Shown here: positions 31,989 through 62,804 of the stretch, one piece after another
How positions within the stretch are numbered: the stretch's first letter is position 1
Layout: every line of letters begins with the position of its first letter
Assembly (NCBI GenBank): GCA_021820845.1
Contig: JAKADC010000006.1
Span: 62,001 to 126,000 of the forward strand
DNA: 64,000 nt
Source: Pseudomonadota bacterium
Lineage (GTDB): Bacteria > Pseudomonadota > Gammaproteobacteria > Burkholderiales > Thiobacillaceae
Direction: 5' to 3'
Translations under genes and position numbers: made by a program
Notes under the pieces: generated by a model
Told to the model about the DNA's origin: nothing
Database searches by the model: none
What the model saw: only the letters and a program-made list of their open reading frames with translations

Positions 31989-32657
31989 ATGCGTCTGGCT
32001 GGACGCTCGCCGAATGTTCATCTGCTGGAATTGCCCTGGGCAACACACACCGTGGCCGTAAAGAAACGAAAGACCGCCGAAGTCCGCCGCCATGACATCG
32101 TCGAGGCGGCCATGGAAATCATTCGCCATGAAGGCGTCGCCAGCCTCACCACGCGCTCGCTCTCCAAGGCCGTCGGCATCGCGCAGCCGACTCTGTTCCT
32201 GCACTTCGGCAACAAGAGCCATGTCCTGGTCGCGCTGGTCGACACCATCCAGGCGCGGCTGCAGAAGGAGATGGCCGATCTCGGCCTCGACCGGATGAGG
32301 CCGCTCGAACGGCTGCAGGCCGTCATCCGCGCCCACTTGAACTTCATCCAGCAGCAGCCCGGGATTCCGCGCCTGCTGTTTTCGGAAGAACTGCAAAGCG
32401 GCGACCCGATATTCCGCGACCGGATGAACGAGCTGGTGCGCTATTTTCTTCAATTCATCGCCGGGCTGATCAGCGCGGCGCAGGAAGCCGGGGAAATCCG
32501 TGCGGACGTCGTTCCCCAGCAGAACGCCTGCATCCTGATCGCGGCCGTCCAGGGGCTGGCCTTCCGCTGGGTGTTGTCGGACAACCGCTTCGTCCTCGCG
32601 GAACAGGCTGACGCCGTCATCTCGGCGCTGATCTCGGGCTGGGCCCCGCGGGATTAG
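31989..32657 (+). CDS. TetR/AcrR-family transcriptional regulator
   Basis: A 222-residue regulator with the helix-turn-helix LTTRSLSKAVGIAQPTLFLHF and an all-helical ligand domain. The N-terminus is uncertain: ATG 31989 lacks a clear ribosome site, and a GTG at 32052 just before KKRKTAEVRRHDIVEAA would fit the family length better. It lies 73 bp after the DUF2892 gene and probably acts on the palindrome at 29866. Confidence 0.85.
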   Translation: MRLAGRSPNVHLLELPWATHTVAVKKRKTAEVRRHDIVEAAMEIIRHEGVASLTTRSLSKAVGIAQPTLFLHFGNKSHVLVALVDTIQARLQKEMADLGLDRMRPLERLQAVIRAHLNFIQQQPGIPRLLFSEELQSGDPIFRDRMNELVRYFLQFIAGLISAAQEAGEIRADVVPQQNACILIAAVQGLAFRWVLSDNRFVLAEQADAVISALISGWAPRD

Positions 32658-33310
32658 GGCCGGGCCGTCTGCGCGGCCGGAGGCCGGATGCTGCCGGCGG
32701 ACGCCTCGTCCCGGCAGACGACCAGGGCCGGGTCGGCGCCGTGGTCGATCAGGATGCGTTTGACCCGCAGCTGCCACAGGCGGCCGAAAGTCTCTCGCTC
32801 CGCGTCGCTGGCCGTTCCACCGAGCACCTTGGGCATCAGCGCCTGCAGTTCCGGCGGCGAGGGGACGATTTCGGGATGGTAGGCGACCGCGACGCTGGCG
32901 CCCGTGTCGAGCCGGGTGAAGCGAACCTCGGCGCCGGTTCCGGACGCGAACGCCAGCAGGTTGCGGCGGCTGAAACGTCCCGCGAGGCCCTTGAAACCGC
33001 CTTCTCCCGCCGCCCCGGTCAGCATTCCGATCACGGCTGCGATGACGCCGGTGACACCCTCAGCCTGGGGCGTGCCGAGGTCGACCCGCACGCCGCCGCG
33101 CTCCGCGATCGCGCCCGGATAGAGCCGGTCGAGCGCCTTCAGCGTCATCAGGTAGGCGCCCGCGACCGTGGGACAGGAATGCCCGGCGAGTTTGACCACG
33201 TCGAGGTAGCCGTACTCGATGCGGCCACCGCCGGCAGCGCCGAGAAATTCGGCAAGCGGGTCGTACAGGGTGATGCGGGCGACGGCATCGAAAAAGGCGG
33301 GATGGCTCAT
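32654..33310 (-). CDS. FmdE-family protein (formylmethanofuran dehydrogenase subunit E-like)
   Basis: A 218-residue protein with the FmdE core YLDVVKLAGHSCPTVAGAYL, including the conserved His and Cys. The family name comes from methanogens, but no methanofuran genes are present, so the role must differ; bacterial relatives lie beside denitrification and NO genes. It is the last gene of the DUF2249 - NnrS-like - FmdE cassette, joined to the previous gene by an ATGA overlap. Confidence 0.75.
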   Translation of the reverse strand: MSHPAFFDAVARITLYDPLAEFLGAAGGGRIEYGYLDVVKLAGHSCPTVAGAYLMTLKALDRLYPGAIAERGGVRVDLGTPQAEGVTGVIAAVIGMLTGAAGEGGFKGLAGRFSRRNLLAFASGTGAEVRFTRLDTGASVAVAYHPEIVPSPPELQALMPKVLGGTASDAERETFGRLWQLRVKRILIDHGADPALVVCRDEASAGSIRPPAAQTARP

Positions 33311-34434
33311 GGTGTGTGCTCCTTCTGCAAAATCGTGGCGTGGACCAGGGCTGCGACGGCCTGCACGATGAACCATAGCAAGGTCGCCGCGCCGAGCAGC
33401 AGGCCCCATTCGCGTCCGGTTCCCGCCACGGCGCCGCCGATGCAGAACAGCACGGCGCGGACGCCGCCATAGCGGCCGAGCGCGCCGCGCAGGCGCGCGT
33501 GCCAGGCGTTTTGGACGCCGGGACGCAGCCAGACCGGCAAGAGCTGGCTGGCCGCGCCGGTGACCAGCGGCGGCAGGAAGCCGGCGACGTAGATCCACAC
33601 GGGTACCAGACCGACAGGGGAGAGCGCGGCCGCGCCGTAAAGCAGGCTGAGGACGAATCCGGCGAGCGCGGCGGCGAGCAACGGGGCCGCGCCGTGCAAC
33701 CTGAAGACCTCGGTCCGATAAAGCCGCAGCCAGTTCGCTGCAAGGCGCACCGGCGGGATCGCCCACAAGACGGCCCCGACGGCGGCGAGCGGAGCGAACC
33801 ATGCGGCTCCGGCCGCGACCAGCAGGGTGCCGGCGACGGCGAGCGGAAAATCGCGACGGAGTCGCAGGGCCGCGCCCGGATCCGGCTTGCCGGTGACCGT
33901 GGGCATCAACACCGTGAGGGTGCCGAAGGCAGTCATTCCGATGAATCCGAGCGTGTTGAGATGAAGATGCAGGCGCCGCAGGGCCGGCCACTGCTCCGGC
34001 CAGACGGCGCTCGCGAGGATCGCGAGCAGGGCGAACACGAGACACGCCAGCGCAGCCTGGTACCACGCGAGGCCGGGGTGCGGCCGCCCGAGCATGCCGA
34101 TGCGACGCCGCCAGCTCCAGGCCAGCAACGCGGCGGCAGCCGTCGCCGCGACGAATGCGCCCGCGTGACGTCCCCAGGGCATGCCGGGAAGGCTGAGCGC
34201 GGCGACGACCAGAACGCCGCCTGCGAGCGCCAGAACGGGAACCGCGCCCAAGCGGGCGGGCGCGCCGCGCGTGCGCGTCAGCACCGGAATGAAGTGGCCC
34301 ATGGCGCCGAATATCAGCGGCATGGCGCCAACGGCTAGGATCAGATGGAGGACGCTCGCGCGTCCGGCGGCGGGCGAACCGAGGAGCGCGGCGGTGAATG
34401 CCGCCAGGGCGATGAATACCAGCGCCGGCAGCAC
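33307..34434 (-). CDS. NnrS-like multi-spanning membrane protein, cassette 1
   Basis: A 375-residue protein with about eleven hydrophobic helices and His-bearing segments such as FGAMGHFIPVLTR and LHLHLNTLGFIGM, as in NnrS and related haem-copper proteins that protect against nitrosative stress. The start is best read as GTG 34434, 8 bp after the DUF2249 stop. A longer upstream frame is an artefact of the opposite region. A larger relative is in cassette 2 at 36396. Confidence 0.7.
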   Translation of the reverse strand: MLPALVFIALAAFTAALLGSPAAGRASVLHLILAVGAMPLIFGAMGHFIPVLTRTRGAPARLGAVPVLALAGGVLVVAALSLPGMPWGRHAGAFVAATAAAALLAWSWRRRIGMLGRPHPGLAWYQAALACLVFALLAILASAVWPEQWPALRRLHLHLNTLGFIGMTAFGTLTVLMPTVTGKPDPGAALRLRRDFPLAVAGTLLVAAGAAWFAPLAAVGAVLWAIPPVRLAANWLRLYRTEVFRLHGAAPLLAAALAGFVLSLLYGAAALSPVGLVPVWIYVAGFLPPLVTGAASQLLPVWLRPGVQNAWHARLRGALGRYGGVRAVLFCIGGAVAGTGREWGLLLGAATLLWFIVQAVAALVHATILQKEHTP

Positions 34435-34442
34435 CGCGCGAC

Positions 34443-34697
34443 TCAGTTGCGGATGAAGTCGATCACGATTTCGCCCGGTTCGCGGCGCAGGTACTGGATT
34501 TCGACCACTTCGCCGTAGCGATTGCGGAGCTGGTCGAGCAGCGGCAGCGGGTCGTGATCGTTGACGAAGCGCATCCGCTCGCCCGGGGTCAGCGCGTCGA
34601 GCGCGCCGAAGATGGCCGCGTGGCGGAAACGCTTGGCGATTCCACGTGCGTCGAACGGATAGACCTGGTCCTGGCGAAGGTGAAGGTGGGCAGTCAT
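34443..34697 (-). CDS. DUF2249-domain protein, cassette 1
   Basis: An 84-residue protein of the SirA-like DUF2249 fold (FDARGIAKRFRHAAIFGALDAL, GERMRFVNDHDPLPLL). DUF2249 proteins often accompany hemerythrins and NO-related enzymes. First gene of a cassette with an NnrS-like protein and FmdE. An NsrR-like palindrome lies 16 bp upstream of the start. Confidence 0.85.
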   Translation of the reverse strand: MTAHLHLRQDQVYPFDARGIAKRFRHAAIFGALDALTPGERMRFVNDHDPLPLLDQLRNRYGEVVEIQYLRREPGEIVIDFIRN

Positions 34698-34712: not shown

Positions 34713-34735
34713 AAGAAGTAAATGGAATACATATT
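34713..34735 (-). promoter_or_regulatory. NsrR-like operator upstream of cassette 1
   Basis: On the minus strand AATATGTATTC, one base, then ATTTACTTCTT. Compared with the enterobacterial NsrR consensus (half site AAGATGYATTT and its complement) I count 17 of 22 matches. It directly follows a TATAAT (34738-34733) and precedes the DUF2249 start by 16 bp, ideal for NO-relieved repression. Confidence 0.5.
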
Positions 34736-34838
34736 ATAAACACAGGACACGCATTGTGTGTCTCAACTTTTTTACGCGACGCATTTTTCGTGACGCGGCG
34801 CCCCGCGAGCGACGTCCGAAACTCGCCGCTGCTGCCCG

Positions 34839-35264
34839 CTAAGGTTTGTCGGGATCCAGCTCGTCCGCGCCGGGCACGCGGAAGATGCCTTGCAGGCGGA
34901 GCAGTTCCTCGCGGTGCTGGGCCACCAGCTCGTCGAGCAGCGCGCTTCCCTCGCGCGTCAGATGCACCTCCACCGAGCGGCGGTCCGCGCGTCCGGTACG
35001 GCGCTTCACCAGCCCCAGCTTCTCGCATCGCGAGATCAGCGACACGGCCCCGTGATGGTGCGCCTGAAGCCGCTCCGCCAGCTCGCCGACGGTCGCCCAT
35101 TCGCGGCCGGGAAATCCGCGTATGTGCAGCAGCAGCTGATATTGAAGGTGGGTGATGCCGTGCTCGTGCGTCACTTCTTCGCTGAAGCGCAGGAAGCGGC
35201 GGAGCTGGTAACGGAACTGGGAAAGCGCTTCGATTTCCTTCTTGCTCAGGCGGGTGGCTGTCAT
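34839..35264 (-). CDS. MarR-family transcriptional regulator
   Basis: A 141-residue winged-helix protein with ITHLQYQLLLHIRGFPGREW, recognition helix AERLQAHHHGAVSLISRC, wing KRRTGRADRRSVEVHLT. It is divergent from the yip1-dsrC pair, and a perfect 29-bp palindrome lies between them, so it likely represses itself and those genes. Ligand unknown. The 34736-34838 gap upstream of DUF2249 shows no gene. Confidence 0.88.
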   Translation of the reverse strand: MTATRLSKKEIEALSQFRYQLRRFLRFSEEVTHEHGITHLQYQLLLHIRGFPGREWATVGELAERLQAHHHGAVSLISRCEKLGLVKRRTGRADRRSVEVHLTREGSALLDELVAQHREELLRLQGIFRVPGADELDPDKP

Positions 35265-35288
35265 TTTCTTGATTCGGGAGAGGTACTG

Positions 35289-35317
35289 GACTTTATATCA
35301 CAGTATGATATAAAGTC
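35289..35317. promoter_or_regulatory. Perfect 12-bp-arm palindrome between marR and yip1
   Basis: GACTTTATATCA, five bases, TGATATAAAGTC. It lies 25 bp upstream of the MarR start and 82 bp upstream of the yip1 start, and its TTATAT/TATAAA cores can serve as -10 boxes in both directions. This is the expected form of a MarR operator. Confidence 0.75.
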
Positions 35318-35398
35318 ATCGTGGTCGCCCCGCCGGGAATCGTCGAGGTCTGGTCGGGGCGGCGCGGTTGCAACATGGATTCCGAGAGGAGAGTTCGC

Positions 35399-35968
35399 AT
35401 GAGTATCCTGCATATTCCCAAGCTGTTCACGTCGTCCCACGAAGGGTGGGATGCATTTTCCGAAACCCGGCCGTCGCCGCTTCGGCTCTTCGTCGTGCTG
35501 GCGTTGCCGTGCTCGCTGATCCCGCCGCTGATGCTCGAGTACGCGGGCCACCACGTCGGCGCCGCCATGTTCCCGGATACCCCCGGCATGGCGTGGAGCA
35601 TGGCCGCATTCTTCTTCCTGCTGGCGGAGTGGCTGACGGTGCCTTTCATGGGCTGGGCGATCGCGTCGATCGCGCGCAGCAAGGGGATCGCGACCGACCA
35701 GCACGACGCGTTCGCGCTGGCCGCCGTCGCGCCGATCCCCCTGTGGCTGTCGTCGCTGGTCCTCTTCCACGACCAGATCCTGCTGATCATGGCCGGGCTC
35801 GTCGTCGGTCTGGCCGCCTCGGTGATCCTGATCTTTCGCGGCGTGCAGAACATCCTGAAGGTGCGGGAAGAGCTCGTCGCGATCGATGTCGCCTACACCG
35901 TCACCGCGCTCGGACTTGTCGCCTGGGTGACTCTGGTCATGCTGGGGCTCCTTCCGGTCCTTGCCTGA
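35399..35968 (+). CDS. Yip1-domain membrane protein
   Basis: A 189-residue protein with an N-terminal amphipathic stretch (HIPKLFTSSHEGWDAFS) and five membrane helices, as in bacterial Yip1-family proteins. Start 35399 follows ggagag. It is co-directional with the DsrC-like gene 57 bp downstream. No molecular role is known. Confidence 0.78.
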   Translation: MSILHIPKLFTSSHEGWDAFSETRPSPLRLFVVLALPCSLIPPLMLEYAGHHVGAAMFPDTPGMAWSMAAFFFLLAEWLTVPFMGWAIASIARSKGIATDQHDAFALAAVAPIPLWLSSLVLFHDQILLIMAGLVVGLAASVILIFRGVQNILKVREELVAIDVAYTVTALGLVAWVTLVMLGLLPVLA

Positions 35969-36025
35969 CGCCGTTTTCTGGTCCGCCCGGCGGATCGCGC
36001 CGGGCATTTCTGAGGAGGTTGAACG

Positions 36026-36358
36026 ATGGATGCAGATGTGAAGGTTCCTTTTCCCACCCTCGACGAAGAGGGGTATCTCGTCGAACCCGGTGAGTGGAAC
36101 GAAGCAATCGCGGAGCGGCTCGCGCGATCTGAGAATGTCACGCTCACCGACGCGCACTGGGACGTCATCCGTTTCATGCGCGACTATTACGAAGAACACC
36201 AGATCGCACCCGATGCGCGCTACGTGATCAAGCACCTGTCGAACCGTCTCGGATCCGACGCGCGCAACGCGCTCTTCAGGCTGTTTGCCTACGGCTACGT
36301 CAAGCAGGCATGCAAGATCGCCGGGATGAAGCGCCCGCGCGCGTGGAGCACGGGCTGA
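36026..36358 (+). CDS. DsrC/TusE-family protein lacking the terminal cysteine
   Basis: A 110-residue DsrC-fold protein (FPTLDEEGYLVEPGEWNEAIA; LTDAHWDVIRFMRDYYEEH; APDARYVIKHL). True DsrC has two redox Cys in its C-terminal arm and TusE keeps only the penultimate one. Here the arm reads YVKQACKIAGMKRPRAWSTG: the internal Cys is kept and the terminal one is replaced, the reverse of TusE. Sulfur carriage by trisulfide formation is therefore unlikely, and a regulatory or single-thiol role is possible. Ribosome site gaggagg. Confidence 0.85.
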   Translation: MDADVKVPFPTLDEEGYLVEPGEWNEAIAERLARSENVTLTDAHWDVIRFMRDYYEEHQIAPDARYVIKHLSNRLGSDARNALFRLFAYGYVKQACKIAGMKRPRAWSTG

Positions 36359-36365
36359 CATCCGC

Positions 36366-36390
36366 CGGCCGCCCTGTTCTGGGGCGGCCG
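36366..36390. terminator. Strong hairpin between convergent dsrC-like and NnrS-like genes
   Basis: Perfect 9-bp stem CGGCCGCCC / GGGCGGCCG with a 7-nt loop. No T-run follows. It probably ends transcription from both sides or blocks read-through. Confidence 0.55.
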
Positions 36391-36395
36391 CGCAT

Positions 36396-37676
36396 TCAAC
36401 GATAGCGTCCGCCGTGGCGCGAGAAGCGGCGCACCGCCGTTAACAGATTGATCCCCAGCAGCACCGCCGAGAGCGCCAGCACGAGGCCCGCCGCGCGAAG
36501 CAGGTGCGGCCAGGCGAGCCCCGCCACGACCAGCATGCATGCGACGAGGTGGACCAGGAACTGCAAGCGCGCCCAGCGCGGCGCGATCATGTCCTTCATG
36601 GTGGGAATCGTGCCGGCACGTGCCTGCAGCTGCGCCTGGAGGTGAAACCAGGCGAGGAAGGGCACGATCTTGTAGAGCATGCCGTTCACCACGCTGACCC
36701 CGAATCCCCCGATGAACAGCACACCCAGCGACAAGGGGTAGGCGGTGCTTGCCGCCCAGGCCGGGACGAACTGCGCATACAGCCAGACGAGCACGCACGC
36801 GATCAGGCTCGCCATCCCGAGTCGCCAGAAATCGAGCGTGACGTCGGGCAGCTTGCGGCGGCGGCGGGATTGCAGCCACAGCGTGACGAGCGCGAACACC
36901 AGGATGGCGCCGGCGAGGCCCGCGTCGATCGCGGTCGCGAGGGCGTCGGGCAGGGCCGGCGTCGCGGCATGGAGCAGCAGCAGCGCGAACAGGACGGCCG
37001 CGAGCCAGCGACTCAGCCAGGGCGGATAGGCCGGCGTGATCTGGAACATCGGCACCACCTGGTAGGCGACGCCGATCACCAGCAGCAGCACCCAGCCGAG
37101 CAGACCGAAAGCTGCGTGCGCGCCGGCCCCCGTCTGGATGGCCGCCGGAAGCCGCCCGCCGGCATGCACCAGCGCGAGCACCATCCCCAGCAGCACCGTG
37201 ATGCTGAGTCCGGCGAGGGCGAACCGCATGCCGCTCACCGTCACGCTGGCGACGGCGTGCATGAGCGCGGTGCCGGCCACGCCGAGAAACACGATGAAGC
37301 TGCCGCCGAGCAGAAGGACGGCGACGCCGAACGCCGCCGGCCGGGAAGTGAGGAAGCCCGTCATCAGCGCCGCCGTGCCGGCGACGAGCGAAACGTGAGC
37401 CAGGCCCGCCACGAGCCGGGGCGAGGGCAGGCTTGCACCCGCCACGACCGGCAGCATCTGCATCATCGCCCCCAGCATCGACATGGCGAGAAATCCCAGC
37501 GTGAGCGCGTGGGTGAGGGCGAAGGCCTGCGGCGTCCAGCGCGAAGCCAGCGCGTCGGGCGACGACGCGATCAGGACGGCCGCCGCGAGCAGAAACAGCG
37601 GGGCAGTCAGGAAAAAGCGCAGCGGCGCCGCGAACGGCGGCGCCTGCTCGAAGGAAAGACCGGCAGGTTGTCCCAT
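36396..37676 (-). CDS. NnrS-like multi-spanning membrane protein, cassette 2
   Basis: A 426-residue protein with about twelve hydrophobic helices and His/Met-rich membrane motifs (LTHALTLGFLAMSMLGAMMQ, VAYQVVPMFQITPAYP, MLYKIVPFLAWFHLQ), resembling NnrS and haem-copper-type proteins of NO metabolism. Third in the hemerythrin - DUF2249 - NnrS-like cassette. It is a relative of, but clearly longer than, the protein at 33307. Confidence 0.72.
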   Translation of the reverse strand: MGQPAGLSFEQAPPFAAPLRFFLTAPLFLLAAAVLIASSPDALASRWTPQAFALTHALTLGFLAMSMLGAMMQMLPVVAGASLPSPRLVAGLAHVSLVAGTAALMTGFLTSRPAAFGVAVLLLGGSFIVFLGVAGTALMHAVASVTVSGMRFALAGLSITVLLGMVLALVHAGGRLPAAIQTGAGAHAAFGLLGWVLLLVIGVAYQVVPMFQITPAYPPWLSRWLAAVLFALLLLHAATPALPDALATAIDAGLAGAILVFALVTLWLQSRRRRKLPDVTLDFWRLGMASLIACVLVWLYAQFVPAWAASTAYPLSLGVLFIGGFGVSVVNGMLYKIVPFLAWFHLQAQLQARAGTIPTMKDMIAPRWARLQFLVHLVACMLVVAGLAWPHLLRAAGLVLALSAVLLGINLLTAVRRFSRHGGRYR

Positions 37677-37687
37677 ATGGAAGTGCG

Positions 37688-37930
37688 CTACGCGCTCGCC
37701 TCCGCCTGCCGAATCAGGATGACGTAGCTGCCGTCGGGTTCCATCCGCGTCTCGTGGCGGTAGCCGCGCTCGGCGAGGATGGCGTACAGCGGAAACGGCT
37801 CGCGGTGCAGCAGCATCCGGACGGACTCGCCGGGGCGCAGTTCGTCCAGCGCCTCCATGACCTTTTCCATCGGATCCGGCGGCTCCATCCCGCGGGCGTC
37901 GACGACCCTTTCCCGGGCGGCGGCGCTCAC
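37688..37930 (-). CDS. DUF2249-domain protein, cassette 2
   Basis: An 80-residue SirA-like DUF2249 protein (VVDARGMEPPDPMEKVMEALDEL, RMLLHREPFPLYAIL). It starts at a GTG that overlaps the hemerythrin stop (GTGA), so it is translationally coupled. Paralogue of the protein at 34443. Confidence 0.85.
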   Translation of the reverse strand: MSAAARERVVDARGMEPPDPMEKVMEALDELRPGESVRMLLHREPFPLYAILAERGYRHETRMEPDGSYVILIRQAEASA

Positions 37931-38364
37931 GAGAAGGTTTGCATGGAGCGGATCAGGTCGTCGCGTTCGCCGCTCAACACCTGGTCGGACATGGGGTACA
38001 GCATGTTTTCTTCTTTCAGGTTGTGCTGCTGCATCAGCATGTTGAGCGTTTCCGACAGGCCGAGATAGCCACCGTGGTTGGCCGCCTCGACCGCGCTCGC
38101 CATATTTTGCAGCAGGCTGCGCATCTGTTCGTGTTCCATGCGCATGACCTGGGTCGGTCCCGCGCTCATGCCGGTACGGTTCTCGAAAGCGGGAAACAGC
38201 AGTTCTTCCTCCATCGCCAGATGGTGCGCCAGCGCCGTCCGGAACTGCTCGAAGAGATCGCGGGCGCGCGCCCAGTCCTTTTGCGCCGCCGCCGTTTCGG
38301 CCGAGGCGAACAGGTCGTCGCAGGCACGATGGTCGTTGCCGAGAAAATCCAGAATCGTGCTCAT
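37927..38364 (-). CDS. Hemerythrin HHE-domain protein
   Basis: A 145-residue four-helix protein with the di-iron ligands of the HHE fold: GNDHRACDDLF, HHLAMEEELLFP, MEHEQM and MQQHNLKEENMLYP. Related proteins (YtfE/RIC, DnrN) protect Fe-S clusters from NO or bind O2. The start MSTILDFLGNDH at 38364 matches the family. An NsrR-like site is 14 bp upstream. First gene of cassette 2. Confidence 0.88.
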   Translation of the reverse strand: MSTILDFLGNDHRACDDLFASAETAAAQKDWARARDLFEQFRTALAHHLAMEEELLFPAFENRTGMSAGPTQVMRMEHEQMRSLLQNMASAVEAANHGGYLGLSETLNMLMQQHNLKEENMLYPMSDQVLSGERDDLIRSMQTFS

Positions 38365-38377
38365 GTCATGGCTCCAT

Positions 38378-38400
38378 AAGATGATGAAAAAATACATGTT
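38378..38400 (-). promoter_or_regulatory. NsrR-like operator upstream of the hemerythrin gene
   Basis: On the minus strand AACATGTATTT, one base, TTCATCATCTT. I count 16 of 22 matches to the NsrR consensus, with one near-perfect half site. The position, 14 bp before the start, mirrors the site in front of cassette 1. Confidence 0.48.
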
Positions 38401-38445
38401 TAAGTATATCAGGACTTGCTAACCTGAAATTCTTCTTGACGGATT

Positions 38446-38492
38446 CACAAGATGTCGTAGTCTTAGTCAGACCAATGCACAAGATGTTGTTT
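38446..38492 (+). promoter_or_regulatory. Pair of NrdR-type boxes upstream of nrdD
   Basis: cacaagatgtcgtag (38446-38460) and cacaagatgttgttt (38478-38492) are near-identical and 32 bp apart, three helical turns, the known layout of NrdR operator pairs. The first overlaps the spacer of a likely promoter (TTGACG at 38436-38441), the second lies after the expected start site and ends 14 bp before the nrdD ATG. nrdR is at 43271. Confidence 0.75.
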
Positions 38493-38506
38493 CATAGGAG
38501 GACGGA

Positions 38507-61968: not shown

Positions 61969-62804
61969 CAACTGAGCCCCCGGTGCCGCACCAGCACCTG
62001 CTCGCGTTCACGGAACGCGGCGGCCAGCGTTTCCGCGAAATACACGCTGCGGTGCCGGCCGCCGGTGCAGCCGATGGCGACGGTCAGATAGGCGCGGTGG
62101 TCGCGTATGAAGCACGGCAGCCAGTTTTCCACGAAGCCGCGGATGTCGGCGAGGAGCGCCATCGCATTGGGGCTGTCTTCGAGGAAGGCCTTCACCGGCT
62201 GGTCGCAGCCGGTGAGCGGGCGCAGTTCCGCCACATAGTGCGGATTGGGCAGGCAGCGCACGTCGAACACCAGATCGGCGTCGAGCGGGATGCCGTGCTT
62301 GAAGCCGAACGATTCAAACAGCAGCGTGATGCGCGACCGGTCCTGGCCGATCAGATCCTTGATCCACAGGCGCAGCGCGGCGACGGAGAGATCGCTCGTG
62401 TCGATGCGGTGCGCCAGCGGCGCGATGTCGGCCAGCATCTCGCGTTCGAGCTGGATCGCCTCCTGCAGCGAGACCGTGTCGCCGGAGAGCGGGTGGCGGC
62501 GCCGCGTTTCGGAAAAGCGCTGGACCAGCGTCAGCGTCTTGGCTTCGAGGAAAACGACCCGCAGGTCCGCGCCTTGGTCGCGCAGCGCCTCCGCGATCTG
62601 CGGCAGGTGCGCGAAGCTTGCGCTGCTGCGGGCGTCGATCGCGATCGCGATGCGCGTTTGCCCTTCCTGCCTCAGGTAGTCCACGAGCGGTTGCAGCATG
62701 GCGAGGGGAAGATTGTCGACACAGTAGTAGCCGACGTCTTCGAGCACCGCGATGGCGATGCTCTTGCCCGAACCCGACAAACCCGATACGAGGACGATCT
62801 GCAT
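61968..62804 (-). CDS. rapZ: RNase adapter / nucleotide-binding protein RapZ
   Basis: A 278-residue P-loop protein: Walker [23 protein letters not shown] and [16 protein letters not shown]. In E. coli RapZ guides RNase E to the GlmZ RNA in amino-sugar control. Next to hprK and ptsN as in most betaproteobacteria. TGATG overlap with hprK. Confidence 0.95.

Follow-up and report, generated by a model that had tools for sequence, protein, structure and literature searches.

Predicted NsrR operators at two DUF2249 cassettes of a Thiobacillus genome, with a candidate repressor encoded on another contig

Introduction

Control of nnrS, norB, hmp, nirK and COG4309 by NsrR was predicted in 2005 for beta- and gamma-proteobacteria, in a study whose text passages also link COG4309 to norB and mention Thiobacillus denitrificans for DNR (Rodionov et al., PMC1274295). 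Here we analyze a 64-kb stretch of DNA (the window; positions 62,001 to 126,000 of contig JAKADC010000006.1, assembly GCA_021820845.1, Thiobacillaceae) in which two gene cassettes, DUF2249-NnrS-FmdE (cassette 1) and hemerythrin-DUF2249-NnrS (cassette 2), are each preceded by a palindrome that we predict to be an operator of NsrR, an Rrf2-family repressor with a nitric oxide (NO)-sensitive iron–sulfur (Fe-S) cluster. COG4309 is taken here to be the DUF2249 family; in enterobacteria, YtfE/RIC, di-iron Fe-S repair proteins, are NsrR targets. In a haloarchaeon, DUF2249 genes are induced when the cells denitrify (PMC11218638).

As far as the text passages of PMC1274295 describe the 2005 regulons, the window shares with them the operator type gATGyAT-N5-ATrCATc, the repressor family and the kinds of target; these passages, tables and figures aside, hold no mention of the Thiobacillus cassettes, of a hemerythrin target, of an FmdE-like gene, or of a single operator being served by either of a pair of NsrR paralogues. 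On this comparison the regulatory logic is the one predicted for the 2005 regulons, where nnrS, norB and COG4309 already figured among the targets in beta-proteobacteria; the cassettes extend the known network. The outcome is a concrete predicted NO regulon in the sulfur-oxidising, denitrifying genus Thiobacillus, comprising an NO reductase and at least three cassettes under one repressor. The cassettes encode uncharacterised metal-centre-type proteins, and having DUF2249, hemerythrin and NnrS-like proteins of heme-copper-oxidase (HCO) fold tied to NO in one place helps to assign a function to DUF2249.

Results and Discussion

Both palindromes had been marked in the original prediction, with 17 and 16 matches out of 22 to the NsrR consensus, and coordinates and counts alike were reproduced (Table 1). 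The gap of 14–16 bp claimed to the first gene holds for operator 1, which lies 15 bp from the start at 34697, but has to be corrected to 13 bp for operator 2 (start 38364). Each site is a palindrome of the gATGyAT-N5-ATrCATc type at a promoter, imperfect but supported by a matrix (see below) and by conservation. Operator 1 shares three bases with the end of a perfect TATAAT box 5′ of the DUF2249 gene, and operator 2 lies, on the coding strand, directly downstream of a TATACT −10 box 5′ of the hemerythrin gene, placements that would both suit a repressor blocking the start of transcription.

A consensus scan found no further place at ≥16/22 in the rest of the 64-kb window, and dinucleotide shuffles of the window gave 0.07 places per 64 kb at ≥16/22 and none at 17 (60 shuffles). 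Local shuffles matched the observed best consensus score in 0 of 3000 cases for site 1 and in 19 of 3000 for site 2, which lies in an AT-rich region (39% GC). A matrix was trained on 20 operators of other genomes found beside nsrR, hmp, nirK-like or quinol-type NO reductase (qNor) genes, both cassettes being excluded; as the training sites were chosen by similarity to the NsrR consensus, the matrix restates that motif more sharply and does not amount to unrelated evidence. Scanned over the window, it ranks site 1 first (26.4) and site 2 second (23.3), the next-best place scoring 15.5 and shuffled windows peaking at 7.8 (standard deviation 2.8). Shuffled upstream regions, which are A+T-richer, gave scores as good 0 times in 5000 for site 1 and 7 times in 5000 for site 2. 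A pattern derived from both sites ranks them within the three best places in the 2.85 Mb genome, a partly circular result that serves as a rank check only (genome-wide statements here are based on pattern searches and selected stretches). Judged by these scans, the sites exceed chance, site 2 by itself being the weaker case and gaining strength from its conservation.

Conservation was followed across 36 Thiobacillus genomes, the window's own included. The DUF2249 gene of cassette 1 is present in 15 of them, and in all 15 carriers site 1, as TATAATATGYATTCCATTTACWTCTT or a close variant, lies ~36 bp 5′ of the DUF2249 start and overlaps the TATAAT box. The mean modal base frequency in these 15 genomes is 0.50 over the 70 bp upstream, 1.0 in the TATAAT box, 0.89 in the next 20 operator bases and 0.66 beyond. 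Site 2 is clear in 9 of 20 orthologous promoters (G000, the window's genome, with G005, G008, G013, G016, G020, G024, G028 and G030) and weaker in a tenth (G034); in the six genomes with an intact pair of qNor and the repressor gene nsrR1 introduced below, it is near-identical, at equal distance and beside a conserved −10 box. Conservation in close relatives, on which the original prediction had staked its reading, is thus found for both sites. Most hemerythrin-DUF2249-NnrS loci of other families have no site at ≥16/22 near the operon, so NsrR control of cassette 2 is not general outside Thiobacillus.

The window's genome encodes three Rrf2 proteins: IscR (contig C1), a third, unassigned Rrf2 (contig C7), and an NsrR-like protein, NsrR1, which answers the call for an nsrR gene in this genome and lies divergent from qNor (NorB_cytochrome_c-like and COX1 domains). 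The closest solved structure to NsrR1 is NsrR 5n07, with which the three cluster cysteines of AECFDPSGNQCLYSPAC align and Asp8 is retained; in S. coelicolor NsrR these three cysteines and Asp8 ligate the cluster. A 16/22 site lies between nsrR1 and qNor in the window's genome. Of six relatives, five also have a site there, and the sixth, G011, has lost both qNor and the site but kept NsrR1. The picture of two parallel modules governed by a single repressor from another locus fits this genome, NsrR1 being encoded on another contig.

Beyond the NO reductase, the same type of site is found at no fewer than one more cassette of the genome. This third cassette shares the contig of cassette 2, ~78 kb away from it, and encodes a DUF59 protein (Fe-S assembly-type), a DUF2249 protein, a membrane protein and a hemerythrin, so that the earlier count of two cassettes is right for the window but becomes three for the genome. 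Cytochrome d1 (NirS-type) genes are also present, and the genome thus very likely makes NO; full-length Hmp was not found in it.

Table 1. Coordinates of operators, promoter element and genes (window positions unless a genome and contig are given)
Feature	Position	Strand	Details
NsrR-type operator 1, AATATGTATTCCATTTACTTCTT	34713..34735	minus	17/22 vs consensus AAGATGYATTTNAAATRCATCTT
NsrR-type operator 2, AACATGTATTTTTTCATCATCTT	38378..38400	minus	16/22 vs consensus AAGATGYATTTNAAATRCATCTT
TATAAT −10 box of DUF2249 promoter	34733..34738	minus	unchanged across 15 genomes
NsrR1 gene, NsrR-like Rrf2 repressor	G000:C20:207373-207846		PF02082 126.2 bits vs cut-off 30
NsrR-type site before third cassette, AAGATGTATTTCACGTGTATCTT	G000:C6:22392-22414 (L131:8393-8415)		19/22
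DUF2249 gene, first of cassette 1	34443..34697	minus	84 aa; PF10006 94.5 bits
NnrS-like 12-helix membrane protein, cassette 1	33307..34446	minus	379 aa; PF05940 E 4.5e-4, 20.1 bits vs cut-off 28
FmdE-like protein, last of cassette 1	32654..33310	minus	218 aa; PF02663 E 4.2e-4, 20.8 bits vs cut-off 22.9
Hemerythrin-domain protein, first of cassette 2	37927..38364	minus	145 aa; PF01814 85 bits
Second DUF2249 gene, cassette 2	37688..37930	minus	80 aa; PF10006 74.3 bits, TusA 40.2 bits
Second NnrS-like membrane protein, cassette 2	36396..37676	minus	426 aa; HCO subunit I fold (model); no Pfam match
MarR-family gene upstream of cassette 1	34839..35264	minus	PF12802 50.2 bits; type A synteny

We consider it very probable that both palindromes are NsrR operators and that NsrR1 represses both cassettes until NO damages its cluster. 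Without NO, holo-NsrR1 would occupy the −10/start region and block the DUF2249-NnrS-FmdE and hemerythrin-DUF2249-NnrS operons. NO, supplied by the cytochrome cd1-type nitrite reductase of the same cell, would damage the cluster and release NsrR1, upon which the cassettes and the NO reductase would be switched on together. The data show the sites with their placement and conservation, and the repressor gene with its genomic surroundings; binding, NO sensing by NsrR1 and the ensuing induction are what we infer, as are the roles of the cassette proteins, probably NO binding or the repair of NO-damaged metal centres.

Several observations weigh against this assignment. The related genomes do not count as independent, and several of them are incomplete; site 2 is absent or degraded in the remaining half or so of the 20 promoters, and its right half is weak; the incomplete genomes G008 and G028 retain site 2 with neither NsrR1 nor a second NsrR, NsrR2 (see below), detected; and NsrR1, for which NsrR is the best NCBIfam family, scores 131.8 bits against a 182-bit cut-off, with RirA close at 122.4. 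On one rival reading only site 1 would work as an NsrR operator; site 2 would be a decayed or chance match in AT-rich sequence, and the hemerythrin operon would answer to another regulator or to its promoter facing nrdD. This explanation, which we regard as unlikely, draws on the base composition around site 2, on the local shuffles that equal its consensus and matrix scores, and on its loss from about half of the orthologues, G011 with its NsrR1 among them; it has to contend with the second-best matrix score in 64 kb and with the near-identical copies of site 2 wherever NsrR1 and qNor form an intact pair (six genomes).

The palindromes might also be read by another Rrf2 protein, either IscR or the unassigned one of C7, the signal then being Fe-S status and not NO. 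Operators of Rrf2 proteins resemble each other, and the genome has three such genes to choose from; yet nothing above 13/22 is found at the IscR locus on C1 (3.4 kb) or at the C7 Rrf2 locus, the C1 protein scores above the IscR cut-off, and in relatives the same operator type adjoins nsrR-type genes flanking qNor, hmp, a nirK-like gene and DUF2249. We hold this to be very improbable, and give just as little credence to control of cassette 1 by the adjacent MarR protein in place of NsrR. The marR gene does lie directly upstream of cassette 1 on the same strand and is retained in genomes with the type A arrangement (see below), but its conserved MarR-type palindrome stands before marR, between it and the divergent Yip1/DsrC genes, no copy of it occurs near the DUF2249 promoter, and the NsrR-type site persists in genomes that lack marR at cassette 1.

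With both palindromes read as NsrR operators, the distribution of the repressor genes themselves becomes relevant. Eight of the 15 DUF2249-carrying genomes have NsrR2 divergent from the DUF2249 gene, several of them with an additional site at nsrR2's own start, and the other seven, the window's included, have NsrR1 in place of NsrR2. Both together were found in none of the 15 genomes, and neither in the 21 genus genomes without the DUF2249 gene (several of the genomes are incomplete). This mutually exclusive pattern makes a natural case for studying the replacement of a repressor on a near-constant operator. In the type A arrangement, that of the window's genome, the cassette 2 NnrS-like gene is followed on its 3′ side by dsrC-yip1-marR and then cassette 1; in type B it is followed by a divergent nsrR2 and then cassette 1, which in some type B genomes lies further off or on a different contig. 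Among cultured type A strains, T. thioparus DSM 505 carries site 1 as well as site 2. In L168, a locus from Hydrogenophilaceae, marR, nsrR2 and cassette 1 lie next to one another, and this locus branches outside types A and B in a tree of the cassette 1 NnrS-like protein. Arrangement and tree position suggest, short of proof, that type A lost nsrR2, kept the operator and came under NsrR1 in trans. The tree does not settle a single origin of the nsrR2-less arrangement (p-AU 0.45 for one clade), and we therefore claim no number of repressor swaps. We give an even chance to a history in which the DUF2249 promoter was first paired with its own divergent nsrR2, which was lost in the lineage or lineages of the window, the operator staying nearly unchanged, and in which the ~50%-identical, qNor-linked paralogue NsrR1 took over in trans and so merged two NO circuits. 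This apparent passing of a near-constant operator from one repressor paralogue to the other is the novel part of the present findings and the one that would surprise specialists.

NsrR-like genes of the genus beside hmp, a nirK-like multicopper oxidase or DUF2249 have this palindrome type at most of these loci. As a separate observation, NsrR subtypes in Thiobacillus number at least four, and the NO-related neighbour differs from one to the next: qNor, DUF2249, hmp or a nirK-like gene (L216-L227, L230-L235).

The labels NnrS-like and FmdE correspond to Pfam matches that are below threshold or absent, and the NnrS-like proteins model as an HCO fold. For the cassette 1 protein (model pLDDT 85), almost all Foldseek matches are HCO subunit I (probability 1.00, TM ~0.7), the fold that it is accordingly modelled to have. 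The cassette 2 protein, tried as a Pfam NnrS (PF05940), gave no match at all; its model (pLDDT 91) aligns with cbb3 CcoN at Z 34.5 over 393 residues and with cNOR at Z 31.9 and predicts a 12-helix HCO subunit I fold. A catalytic oxidase has six His ligands, for two hemes and CuB; strictly conserved in the cassette 2 NnrS-like family are only His56, His187 and His345, and the NnrS-like proteins would be heme-binding proteins in a non-oxidase role. Compared by hhalign, the two are weakly similar to each other (probability 60%), with no similarity seen to the membrane protein of the third cassette. They resemble NnrS (PF05940) in being polytopic, of predicted heme-protein type and part of putatively NO-responsive operons, but differ in scoring below the cut-off (cassette 1) or without match (cassette 2), the relation being one at the level of the HCO fold only. 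The cassette 2 hemerythrin likewise shares its domain with YtfE/RIC and has RIC as its best NCBIfam match, but with 41.7 bits against a cut-off of 204.7 bits and 145 aa against the 216 positions of the RIC model it is another hemerythrin. The FmdE-like gene keeps its order in relatives.

Upstream of cassette 1, the MarR gene is probably outside the NO module. Between marR and the divergent yip1-dsrC lies a conserved palindrome, TTTATATCACAnnnTGATATAAA (within 35265-35345), also found in T. thioparus, L168 and L139, which is probably MarR's own operator and belongs to a separate unit. On the far side of cassette 2, the nrdD promoter facing the hemerythrin gene (38401-38506) contains two ACAAGATGT-like repeats that are conserved in the genus and presumably resemble NrdR boxes.

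Two strong palindromes elsewhere in the genome have no obvious link to NO, one 3′ of soxB and before a 94-aa gene (G000:C6:153309-153331, L132), the other before a dsrC paralogue (G000:C1:20876-20898, L135). Another strong NsrR-type site (19/22, matrix 37.5) precedes a PAS/sigma-54 activator gene (G000:C7:182025-182047, L133) near a cluster of multicopper-oxidase and cytochrome c genes; in relatives, nsrR stands beside a similar nirK-like cluster.

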